64,000 nt of DNA, from assembly GCF_002946835.1 (NCBI RefSeq), contig NZ_CP026652.1, positions 6,758,001 to 6,822,000 of the forward strand, in the 5' to 3' direction. The position numbers and the translations under genes are program-made. Shown piece by piece: positions 13,922-63,199 of this stretch. Under the pieces are notes generated by a model. The model was not told the origin of the DNA, ran no database searches, and saw nothing but the letters and a program-made list of their open reading frames with translations. The DNA is from Streptomyces dengpaensis (GTDB lineage Bacteria > Actinomycetota > Actinomycetes > Streptomycetales > Streptomycetaceae). The stretch's first letter is position 1; each line of letters begins with the position of its first letter.

Positions 13922-13980
13922 ACGGCGGGAACGTCCTCAGCCGCCCACCCCGCCAACGACCCCCGCCCTGGAGTCTGTCC

Positions 13981-15579
13981 GTGATCTCCGCCTCCGGTAT
14001 CGAGCTGCGCGCCGGCGCCCGCATCCTCATCGAGTCCGCCACCTTCCGTATCGCCAAGGGCGACCGCATCGGCCTGGTCGGCCGCAACGGCGCGGGCAAG
14101 ACGACCCTGACCAAGGTCCTCGCGGGTGAGGGCATCCCCGCCGCCGGCAACGTCACCCGCTCCGGCGAGGTGGGCTATCTGCCGCAGGACCCGCGTACCG
14201 GCGACCTCGACGTACTCGCCCGGGACCGCATCCTCTCCGCGCGTGGCCTGGACACCCTGATCCGCAAGATGCGCGAGAACGAGCAGCGGATCGCCAACGG
14301 CACCGGCGCCACCCGCGAAAAGGCCATGAGGCAGTACGAGCGCCAGGAGACGGAGTTCCTCACCAAGGGCGGATACGCCGCCGAGGCCGAGGCCGCCACC
14401 ATCGCCGCCGCGCTCAACCTGCCCGACCGTGTGCTCGGCCAGCCGCTGCACACGCTCTCCGGTGGTCAGCGCCGCCGTGTCGAGCTGGCCCGCATCCTGT
14501 TCTCGGACGCCGACACGCTCCTGCTCGACGAGCCGACCAACCACCTCGACGCCGACTCGATCGTCTGGCTGCGTGACTACCTCAAGACCTACCGCGGCGG
14601 CTTCATCGTGATCTCCCACGACGTCGACCTGGTCGAGACGGTCGTCAACAAGGTCTTCTACCTGGACGCCAACCGCGCCCAGATCGACGTCTACAACATG
14701 GGCTGGAAGCTCTACCAGCAGCAGCGCGAGGCCGACGAGAAGCGTCGCAAGCGCGAGCGGCAGAACGCCGAGAAGAAGGCCGCCGCGCTGAACTCGCAGG
14801 CGGACAAGATGCGCGCCAAGGCCACCAAGACGGTGGCCGCACAGAACATGGCCAAGCGGGCCGACAAGCTGCTCGCCGGCCTGGAGGCGGTCCGCGTCTC
14901 CGACAAGGTCGCCAAGCTGCGCTTCCCGGAGCCCGCGCCCTGCGGCAAGACCCCGCTCCTGGCCGAGGGCCTGTCGAAGTCGTACGGCTCGCTGGAGATC
15001 TTCACCGATGTCGACCTGGCCATCGACAAGGGTTCGCGGGTGGTCATCCTGGGCCTGAACGGCGCCGGCAAGACGACCCTGCTGAAGCTGCTCGGCGGCG
15101 CCGAGAAGCCCGACACCGGCCAGGTGATCGAGGGCCACGGCCTCAAGCTCGGCTACTACGCGCAGGAGCACGAGACGCTCGACCCGGAGCGCACGGTCCT
15201 GGAGAACATGCGCTCCGCCGCCCCCGACCTGGACCTGGTCGAGGTCCGCAAGACGCTCGGCTCGTTCCTGTTCTCCGGCGACGACGTCGACAAGCCGGCC
15301 GGCGTCCTCTCCGGTGGTGAGAAGACCCGTCTCGCGCTCGCGACGCTGGTGGTTTCCTCCGCGAACGTCCTGCTGCTCGACGAGCCGACGAACAACCTCG
15401 ACCCGGCCAGCCGCGAGGAGATCCTCGGCGCGCTGCGCACCTACAAGGGCGCCGTCGTCCTCGTCACCCACGACGAGGGCGCCGTCGAGGCGCTCCAGCC
15501 GGAGCGGATCATCCTGCTGCCGGACGGCGTCGAGGACCTGTGGGGCGCCGACTACGCGGACCTGGTGGCCCTCGCCTGA
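13981..15579 (+). CDS. ABC-F family ATP-binding protein
   Basis: Soluble protein of 532 residues with two ABC domains and no membrane part, acting on the ribosome (translation factor or antibiotic protection). The first domain has GRNGAGKTT, the signature LSGGQRRRVELARIL and LLLDEPTNHLD. A charged helical linker (READEKRRKRERQNAEKKAA) is the ribosome-probing P-site tip region. The second domain has GLNGAGKTTLLKLLGG, LSGGEKTRLALATL and LLLDEPTNNLD. The start is GTG (VISASGIELRAGARIL). A short leaderless ORF lies 59 nt upstream. Whether it protects against an antibiotic or has a housekeeping role cannot be read from sequence. Confidence 0.9.
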   Translation: MISASGIELRAGARILIESATFRIAKGDRIGLVGRNGAGKTTLTKVLAGEGIPAAGNVTRSGEVGYLPQDPRTGDLDVLARDRILSARGLDTLIRKMRENEQRIANGTGATREKAMRQYERQETEFLTKGGYAAEAEAATIAAALNLPDRVLGQPLHTLSGGQRRRVELARILFSDADTLLLDEPTNHLDADSIVWLRDYLKTYRGGFIVISHDVDLVETVVNKVFYLDANRAQIDVYNMGWKLYQQQREADEKRRKRERQNAEKKAAALNSQADKMRAKATKTVAAQNMAKRADKLLAGLEAVRVSDKVAKLRFPEPAPCGKTPLLAEGLSKSYGSLEIFTDVDLAIDKGSRVVILGLNGAGKTTLLKLLGGAEKPDTGQVIEGHGLKLGYYAQEHETLDPERTVLENMRSAAPDLDLVEVRKTLGSFLFSGDDVDKPAGVLSGGEKTRLALATLVVSSANVLLLDEPTNNLDPASREEILGALRTYKGAVVLVTHDEGAVEALQPERIILLPDGVEDLWGADYADLVALA

Positions 15580-15633: not shown

Positions 15634-15701
15634 GATCGAATGACTGATCCACTGCGTATGGATCATTCGGCCGATCCGTGATCCTTCATCTGTGTGAGAT
15701 C
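15634..15701. promoter_or_regulatory. Cluster of six GATC sites upstream of gbn
   Basis: GATC begins at 15634, 15646, 15661, 15673, 15680 and 15698, six sites in 68 bp. Two further sites lie at 15928 (in the gbn leader) and 16241 (in the loop of its terminator). Gbn, encoded just downstream, is known as a GATC-binding nucleoid-associated protein, so this is a likely autoregulatory or high-occupancy binding region. Confidence 0.6.
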
Positions 15702-15737
15702 TCCTCGTACCGAGGTGTGTCCTACATCGATTTCATG

Positions 15738-15768
15738 GCCGAGCCCTTTGTTCCCAAGGGCTCGGCCG
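15738..15768 (+). terminator. 12-bp perfect hairpin after the ABC-F gene
   Basis: Arms 15738-15749 and 15757-15768 (GGCCGAGCCCTT and its complement) with a 7-nt loop. It lies 160 bp after the ABC-F stop and downstream of the GATC cluster. It could equally end a transcript starting in the cluster, as part of an attenuated gbn leader. Confidence 0.6.
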
Positions 15769-15969
15769 TCTCGCGTCGCTGACCAGGTACTTCGCGGAAG
15801 AACCCGTTCGGCCGTACGGACTACGGCAGCCGGAACCTGAAATTCCACTCGTGGGGATGGGCGCCTGTCGTCAAAACCTTGTCCTACGGACCTTGCCGAA
15901 TGGGTGGCCACGAGGCCCAGGAGGGGTGATCATGAGAGTCCAGAGCGCACTTCCCATGAGGAGGCACGG

Positions 15970-16191
15970 GTGGCCGAGACTCTGAAGAAGGGCAGCCGGG
16001 TGACCGGCGCCGCGCGCGACAAGCTCGCGGCAGACCTGAAGAAGAAGTACGACTCCGGTGCGAGTATCCGGGCGCTGGCCGAAGAGACCGGCCGCTCGTA
16101 TGGCTTTGTGCACCGGATGCTCAGTGAGTCGGGCGTCACGCTCCGAGGGCGTGGTGGCGCGACGCGGGGCAAGAAGGCCGCGTCGGCCTGA
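15970..16191 (+). CDS. gbn: GATC-binding nucleoid-associated protein Gbn
   Basis: A 73-residue basic protein from GTG 15970 (AETLKKGSRVTGAARDKLAA), matching the length I recall for Gbn of S. coelicolor. It has a single helix-turn-helix: YDSGASIRALAEETGRSYGF followed by VHRMLSESGVTLRGRGG, then a basic tail GKKAASA. The GTG sits behind GAGGAGGCAC. An in-frame GTG at 15904 would add 22 residues and is not favoured. Known role of the family: binding GATC-containing DNA, influencing nucleoid architecture and the timing of development. The identification is by remembered sequence resemblance. Confidence 0.85.
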   Translation: MAETLKKGSRVTGAARDKLAADLKKKYDSGASIRALAEETGRSYGFVHRMLSESGVTLRGRGGATRGKKAASA

Positions 16192-16222
16192 GGCCGGGCG
16201 TCCCCATCGGCTTCGGTGGTGG

Positions 16223-16254
16223 CCACCCGGTCGGTCGGGTGATCGACCGGGTGG
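16223..16254 (+). terminator. Terminator of gbn
   Basis: Perfect 10-bp arms CCACCCGGTC (16223-16232) and GACCGGGTGG (16245-16254), 32 bp after the gbn stop. The loop contains a GATC. Confidence 0.7.
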
Positions 16255-16328
16255 TTACTGTGCAGTCACTTAGGTGTGTGCCTCATGGCGTACGCGCCTG
16301 ATCCGACCGCATCCATCGGAGGCGCCCC

Positions 16329-62174: not shown

Positions 62175-62201
62175 AAGATCTTCAACAGCCGTAAGATCTT
62201 C
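62175..62201 (+). promoter_or_regulatory. Two AAGATCTTC palindromic boxes upstream of the paraslipin gene
   Basis: AAGATCTTC at 62175-62183 and 62193-62201, an 18-bp period. Each centres on the palindrome AAGATCTT and contains GATCT. They are 38-66 bp before the paraslipin ATG and are candidate sites for Gbn or another dimeric regulator. Confidence 0.45.
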
Positions 62202-62239
62202 CGGAATTACCGAGGCGGAGAAGGGTACGGGGAGCAACG

Positions 62240-63199
62240 ATGGAACCGATCATCATCGTCCTGATCATTCTGGTGGTGTTGGTCTTCATCGCCCTGATCA
62301 AGACCATCCAGGTGATCCCACAGGCCAGCGCCGCCATCGTCGAGCGCTTCGGCCGCTACACGCGCACCCTGAACGCGGGCCTGAACATCGTCGTCCCGTT
62401 CATCGACTCGATCCGCAACCGCATCGACCTGCGCGAACAGGTCGTCCCGTTCCCGCCGCAGCCGGTGATCACCCAGGACAACCTGGTCGTCAACATCGAC
62501 ACCGTCATCTACTACCAGGTGACCGACGCGCGCGCGGCCACGTACGAGGTCGCCAGCTACATCCAGGCGATCGAGCAGCTCACCGTCACCACACTGCGCA
62601 ACATCATCGGCGGCATGGACCTGGAGCGCACCCTGACCTCCCGCGAGGAGATCAACGCGGCCCTGCGCGGCGTCCTCGACGAAGCCACCGGCAAGTGGGG
62701 CATCCGCGTCAACCGCGTCGAGCTCAAGGCGATCGAGCCGCCCACCTCCATCCAGGACTCGATGGAGAAGCAGATGCGCGCCGACCGCGACAAGCGCGCC
62801 GCGATCCTCACCGCCGAAGGTATCCGCCAGTCGCAGATCCTCACCGCCGAGGGCGAGAAGCAGTCCGCGATCCTGCGCGCCGAAGGTGAGGCCAAGGCCG
62901 CCGCCCTGCGCGCCGAGGGCGAGGCCCAGGCCATTCGTACGGTCTTCGAGTCCATCCACGCCGGAGACCCCGACCAGAAGCTCCTCTCGTACCAGTACCT
63001 CCAGATGCTGCCGAAGATCGCCGAGGGCGACGCCAACAAGCTCTGGATCGTGCCCAGCGAGATCGGCGACGCCCTCAAGGGCCTGTCCGGCGCCTTCGGC
63101 AACTTCGGCCCGATGGGCGGCTCCTCGGGCGGCGGCGGGACCTCCGGAGGCTCGTCCGGCGGCACGGAGCGCCGCGAGAAGCCGTCGATCACCGACTGA
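62240..63199 (+). CDS. SPFH/Band 7 family protein (paraslipin type)
   Basis: A 319-residue membrane-anchored protein: one N-terminal helix (MEPIIIVLIILVVLVFIALI), then the SPFH domain (IPQASAAIVERFGRYTRTLN, VVPFPPQPVITQDNLVVNID) and a coiled coil with Glu/Ala/Lys repeats (RAAILTAEGIRQSQILTAEG). The C-terminal tail is Gly/Ser-rich (GGSSGGGGTSGGSSGGTE). Paraslipins with an NfeD partner form membrane rafts. No protease domain is present. Confidence 0.92.
   Translation: MEPIIIVLIILVVLVFIALIKTIQVIPQASAAIVERFGRYTRTLNAGLNIVVPFIDSIRNRIDLREQVVPFPPQPVITQDNLVVNIDTVIYYQVTDARAATYEVASYIQAIEQLTVTTLRNIIGGMDLERTLTSREEINAALRGVLDEATGKWGIRVNRVELKAIEPPTSIQDSMEKQMRADRDKRAAILTAEGIRQSQILTAEGEKQSAILRAEGEAKAAALRAEGEAQAIRTVFESIHAGDPDQKLLSYQYLQMLPKIAEGDANKLWIVPSEIGDALKGLSGAFGNFGPMGGSSGGGGTSGGSSGGTERREKPSITD

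Follow-up and report, generated by a model that had tools for sequence, protein, structure and literature searches.

The question raised by this locus is why a dense cluster of GATC words lies in front of a gene whose product binds GATC. The window, i.e. the whole stretch of DNA that was analysed, covers 64,000 nucleotides of the Streptomyces dengpaensis genome (NZ_CP026652.1, positions 6,758,001 to 6,822,000). The gene in question, gbn, encodes an HTH_58 protein with a PF19575 match and is located directly downstream of a region of the type bound by Gbn. The binding of Gbn before its own gene is already known in kind, from Streptomyces coelicolor. On the basis of a comparison of related loci we propose, with a probability of roughly 0.6, that the cluster forms the distal half of a control region in two helically phased parts, by means of which Gbn would restrain its own gene. 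The comparison supports such self-control, and it shifts the weight from the six-site cluster, pointed out earlier in a reading made without database searches (the sequence-only reading), to a GATCAT at 15928.

Published binding of Gbn and density of the cluster

In the S. coelicolor study (PMC9239103), SCO1839 was named Gbn and its site was given as GATCWT. Gbn was bound before gbn both in vivo and in vitro. The chromatin immunoprecipitation (ChIP-seq) signal had its summit at -326/-324 of gbn and was enriched 67.75- and 58.18-fold, the highest values in Table 1 of that paper, which covers only the genes discussed, and the probe used in the electrophoretic mobility shift assay, -561 to -239, has eight GATC. 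The window also has eight GATC over this interval, before the same gene; the likeness is one of description, not of sequence. The proposal of the sequence-only reading that Gbn binds at a cluster upstream of gbn is thus matched by a ChIP summit in a related species, while the six sites did not hold up as a conserved unit (see below). The accessible text of PMC9239103 gives no conserved core, singled-out proximal site, spacing rule or test of self-control; 'autoregul' occurs 0 times in its main text, and the null-mutant column of its Table 1 is blank for gbn. Among the titles and abstract openings of related literature, there was no report of a Gbn effect on gbn expression.

The six GATC start at 15634, 15646, 15661, 15673, 15680 and 15698 (steps of 12, 15, 12, 7 and 18 bp), exactly as first described. 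In 864,000 bases of this genome (40 stretches of 20 kb and the window), six GATC within 68 bp were found only once, so that 15634-15701 was the densest 68-bp stretch; counted from each GATC, 1 start reached six, 5 reached five (one inside the cluster) and 42 reached four. GATC is over-represented (the window has 392, against a mean of 301.6 and a maximum of 343 in 100 shuffles), and the background was accordingly 5.92 GATC per kb, or one per 169 bp. The sequence-only reading had expected one per 360 bp, a density too low by about half. With a Poisson expectation for six in 68 bp of ~0.19 in 864 kb and ~2 in a whole genome of this size, the cluster is only moderately unusual in density alone. 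A clustering by chance in an intergenic stretch of low GC, which this expectation and the variability of three of the six sites would favour, is nevertheless highly improbable, given that two of the sites are kept in 133 of 136 Streptomyces sequences, that the cluster sits at a known ChIP peak, and that only 11 of 20,000 copies of the 393-bp intergenic region generated by a first-order Markov model had six in 68 bp. Chance is contradicted for the conserved core; taken singly, 15634, 15673 and 15698 may still be chance sites. A second GATC-rich stretch of the window, 62177-62326, has six GATC in 150 bp.

A Gbn region is expected to contain GATC, best as GATCWT. On either strand, this strong context was present at 15661, alone among the six sites, and again at 15928; the other five sites are plain GATC.

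Conservation of the distal sites

The comparison covered 147 Streptomyces loci, of which the first 141 yielded 136 distinct sequences for alignment, and 33 loci of other Streptomycetaceae genera. GATC aligned at both 15661 and 15680 in 133 of the 136 sequences and at 15646 in 106 (for the other three, see Table 1). In the alignment, the six sites are not one unit: two are nearly fixed, one is mostly kept and three are variable, and the conservation in other species that had been considered earlier was borne out for 15661, 15680 and, in most sequences, 15646, whereas 15634, 15673 and 15698 vary. A GATC pair 19 bp apart was found within 440 bp of gbn in 138/147 Streptomyces loci, the trio with spacings of 15 and 19 in 115/147, and the exact word GGATCATTCGGC in 123/147. 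Outside the core, between -400 and -200, GATC occurred at 11.6 per kb (123 sequences), as compared with 5.9 in the genome as a whole and an average of 2.75 for the 23 rearrangements of its letters. Searched as a DNA match, the distal element was present in 75 of 150 family genomes and in 6 of 17 genera. Among the fetched loci, the element or a variant was seen in genera g34-g37, g41, g44 and g45, and one lone GATC with a related CATC tail behind it in g31 (4 loci), g32 (1) and g39 (2 of 3).

The core is conserved beyond what the known Gbn motif requires: of the 29 core columns that are not part of the two GATC, 17 are likewise kept at >=97%, which weighs against our reading. This surplus, the single strong match per genome (one of the 75 genomes had a second, weak match) and the position of the core before a hairpin would suit a site or promoter of another factor or of an unannotated RNA, in which GATC is part of that site and Gbn binding a by-product. 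We consider this alternative unlikely. The extra GATC around the core come at ~2x the genome rate, and in S. coelicolor the ChIP summit falls at the core region (PMC9239103). An Rfam search gave two matches, both far below the gathering scores, and thus pointed to no structured RNA. The consensus scan of the region revealed no sigma-70-like promoter or terminator and no transcript start was found, which argues against the alternative but also weighs against our own reading.

The proximal GATCAT

GATCAT was found 30-60 bp before gbn in 147/147 Streptomyces and 33/33 other Streptomycetaceae loci (180/180). Outside the family, we examined 104 loci in three sets of 29, 35 and 40, of which 99 were distinct over 150 bp; 40 loci were hand-picked for breadth, mostly from 126 genomes with a match, one family (f19) supplied 23 of the 99, and homology was used to place the gene starts in distant loci. 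GATCAT was present within 110 bp of gbn in 73 of the 99 loci and GATCATG in 61. Any GATC lay within 90 bp in 88, more than for any other of the 24 words of the same four letters. Of 578 control windows of 110 bp taken from these loci, 10 had GATCAT and 256 had GATC. Tallied by family, the proximal GATCAT was present in 22/33 and GATC in 32/33. By the breadth of this distribution, 15928, which the sequence-only reading had listed correctly as one of two further GATC, in the leader, is the oldest site of the region.

Across families, a G.TGGC pattern 25 to 20 bp before the GATC was common in the 73 aligned loci (weighted frequencies of 0.80 for T at -23 and 0.69 for G at -25), and this pattern may be part of the gbn promoter. 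It is present here as GGTGGC (15903-15908).

A frame of 17 codons, MRVQSALPMRRHGWPRL (15932-15985), starts in the proximal GATCATG behind GGAGGGG and overlaps the gbn start. Its DNA is strongly conserved in Streptomyces; outside the family both frame and length vary. A conserved leader peptide was rejected as a general cause of GATCATG, since the phase of this ATG relative to gbn is not constant (34, 14 and 13 of 61), and 24 of the 61 frames stop short of gbn. The in-frame third is over-full, and the ATG could still be an alternative gbn start in some taxa.

Spacing and helical phase

The distance from 15661 to 15928 was measured in 154 of the 180 family loci (26 without a recognisable core were omitted). 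It was 219 bp in 1 locus, 243 in 3, 255 in 1, 264-268 in 104, 277-279 in 25, 288-291 in 18, 293 in 1 and 313 in 1, and thus moved in steps of ~11-12 bp, close to the in vivo helical repeat of bacteria. Helical repeats fitted for lac loops in vivo were 11.08 and 11.60 (PMC1762422), and about 11 was reported elsewhere (PMC8501960). In 138 of the 154 loci, the conserved block B splits this distance into a first part of 116-119, 128-131 or 139-141 bp and a second part of 127, 147-151, 159-160 or 182 bp. The control stretch, from the stop of the upstream ABC-F gene to the core, was widely spread (56 values in 119 loci).

On a tree of 149 distinct loci, where changes over 4 bp were counted, we inferred 20 length changes. 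All 20 lay within 2 bp of a multiple of 11.5 or 12, 19 fit multiples of 11 and 14 multiples of 10.5, with a chance fraction of ~0.39-0.45. In the control stretch, 33 of 63 changes fit 11.5, 39 fit 11, 35 fit 12 and 31 fit 10.5. The two parts flanking block B, taken singly, gave 13/14 and 6/7 changes fitting 11.5. Simulated histories (5000 runs each, with periods of 10 to 12.5 scanned alike in data and simulation) were as periodic as the data in a fraction 0.0014 of the runs with control sizes and 0.0002 of those with uniform sizes. In 57 further genomes, with coordinates taken to the gbn start, 51 were within 2.5 bp of phase at a period of 11.6, 53 at 11 and 51 at 10.5; this set, which is largely two clades and may overlap in species with the named loci, is not decisive for the period (10.5 and 11.6 are not separated). 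Spacers of equal length have drifted: at 267 bp (68 loci), 38% of pairs had <50% identity over 60 bp. If our reading is true, such a drifting spacer, with its length kept in helical turns, would naturally preserve a record of the in vivo helical repeat of Streptomyces. We rejected tandem 11-bp units as the cause of the steps, as the self-match at lag 11 was 0.280, compared with 0.257-0.292 at lags 6-17, and in loci of 277 or more it was 0.298, compared with 0.278-0.304, with no clear excess.

The stepped distance also bears on the possibility that the array is a sink or nucleation site, at which Gbn would be absorbed or collected while transcription of gbn stayed unaffected. The nucleoid protein Gbn binds >2,800 regions and has little effect at the majority of its targets, and the gbn site is the strongest in the table mentioned above (PMC9239103). 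A sink would, however, require no GATCAT next to the gene in family after family, nor would the distance between the parts have to be stepped, and we regard it as improbable, somewhat more so than a site of another factor.

A proposed model for self-control of gbn

With the ABC-F stop (15579) on one side and a 14-pair hairpin on the other, the cluster is 227-294 bp upstream of 15928, measured from site to site, and is for this reason not a simple promoter operator. In the proposed self-control, the proximal GATCAT, at about -42, would be the likely operator by which Gbn holds down gbn transcription. The upstream core of two nearly fixed GATC, with its changing extra GATC, would add a strong landing place for Gbn in Streptomyces and sister genera. 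Core, block B and proximal site seem to be kept on the same helix face, as if they were parts of a single nucleoprotein assembly, which HU proteins might help to form a loop. The sites, their conservation and the stepped spacing are observations, and Gbn occupancy is published for S. coelicolor; self-repression, the place of the promoter and the loop with its helper are what we infer.

Self-repression of gbn would fit the subtly suppressive effect of Gbn at promoters, but few direct changes were seen at bound genes (PMC9239103). HU could supply the bend. The gbn transcript is up in the hupA hupS double mutant (log2 1.75 and 1.31; PMC11472566), and this rise without both HU genes may be indirect.

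The gal repressosome with HU is a case of DNA-loop control with phased operators. A tentative extension of our model, to which we give less credence than to self-control itself, is a repressosome in which the ancient GATCAT is joined to the distal core ~23-25 helical turns away, with HU or another partner bending the DNA; a repressosome for a nucleoid protein would then be visible in evolution's preference for insertions and deletions of whole turns. As expected for loop control, there are two separated conserved site groups, the core and 15928. In this, and in a distance that steps by about one helical turn in vivo, the region resembles the lac loops (PMC1762422, PMC8501960). However, the phasing at gbn is read from evolution and not from a reporter, the loop is only proposed, and Gbn alone neither bends nor compacts the DNA of the region in vitro (PMC9239103).

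Further points weigh against our reading. A loop made by Gbn alone is contradicted, because tethered-particle data on a 685-bp fragment of the gbn region show no looping by Gbn alone (PMC9239103). In the same study, ChIP coverage was not raised at GATC without the following WT, so that five of the six cluster sites may be weak. GATCAT was absent within 110 bp in 26/99 distant loci. Whole-turn spacing was found by comparison only, and off-step loci exist: one with parts of 146 and 145 bp, one with a spacing of 293 (L223), and the GATC of the related element lies 3-4 bp off the steps in g31 (3/4 loci) and one g39 locus. Finally, length classes follow clades and the tree rests on ~1 kb.

Fis and H-NS of Escherichia coli are self-controlled nucleoid proteins with own sites before their own genes. 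Gbn is likewise a nucleoid protein with sites before its own gene; it belongs to an unrelated protein family, and in its case self-repression is our proposal. If it is true, a proximal site spread over most of the other families examined, together with a phased distal partner, would place feedback among the oldest visible jobs of Gbn. As gbn was found in all 145 good-quality Streptomycetaceae genomes examined, its natural loss cannot be used as a test.

Neighbouring elements

The coordinates of the features are collected in Table 1.

Table 1. Features of the gbn locus (positions in the window)
Feature	Position	Strand	Remarks
ABC-F gene, upstream	13978..15579	+	start putative
Distal GATC cluster, six sites	15634..15701		-336 to -269 of gbn
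GATC	15634..15637		kept in 49/136 (minority)
Conserved distal core around GATC 15661 and 15680	15659..15696		the two GATC 19 bp apart; 15646 (15 bp before 15661) kept in most
GATC	15673..15676		kept in 15/136 (minority)
GATC	15698..15701		kept in 57/136
Hairpin, 14 pairs, between cluster and gbn	15735..15769	+	z -3.03
Block B, CTGACC	15779..15784		third of the conserved blocks; shares the phase of the other two in most loci
Imperfect inverted repeat GGAAC-N5-ATTCC	15832..15846		form of published AtrA element; read by eye, conservation by alignment
Proximal GATCAT	15928..15933	+	-42 of gbn; oldest site
gbn, 73 aa, HTH_58	15970..16191	+	GTG start; PF19575 at 2.2e-33

The hairpin between the cluster and gbn is perhaps the end of the ABC-F transcript. 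A perfect stem of at least 8 pairs was present in 88/136 distinct segments (raw count), and the hairpin was dropped as a general feature. Two other candidates were rejected: a small open reading frame at 15660, whose ATG is lost in some sister loci (CGATC for GGATC, read by eye), and a WhiG-type promoter near -70, whose spacing was wrong (judged by eye against the consensus).

Block B with its following bases (15779-15797) is conserved in Streptomyces. The place aligned to it reads CTGATCAG or TGATCAG in the g31 and g32 loci, three g39 loci and 3/4 g42 loci, i.e. GATC appears at this place in loci that lack the distal core. An AtrA site has been predicted upstream of gbn (PMC9239103), and block B and the AtrA-like repeat may mark other proteins taking part.

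Extra HTH_58-like genes of Streptomyces and other genomes (L326-L338) had GATCWT on either strand within 150 bp upstream in 6/15 cases (raw count). Downstream of gbn there is a strong hairpin, 16218-16259 (z -3.87 for 16195-16275). The second further GATC of the sequence-only reading, 16241, had been placed in its loop; in the predicted structure it lies at the loop edge and begins the 3' arm of the stem.
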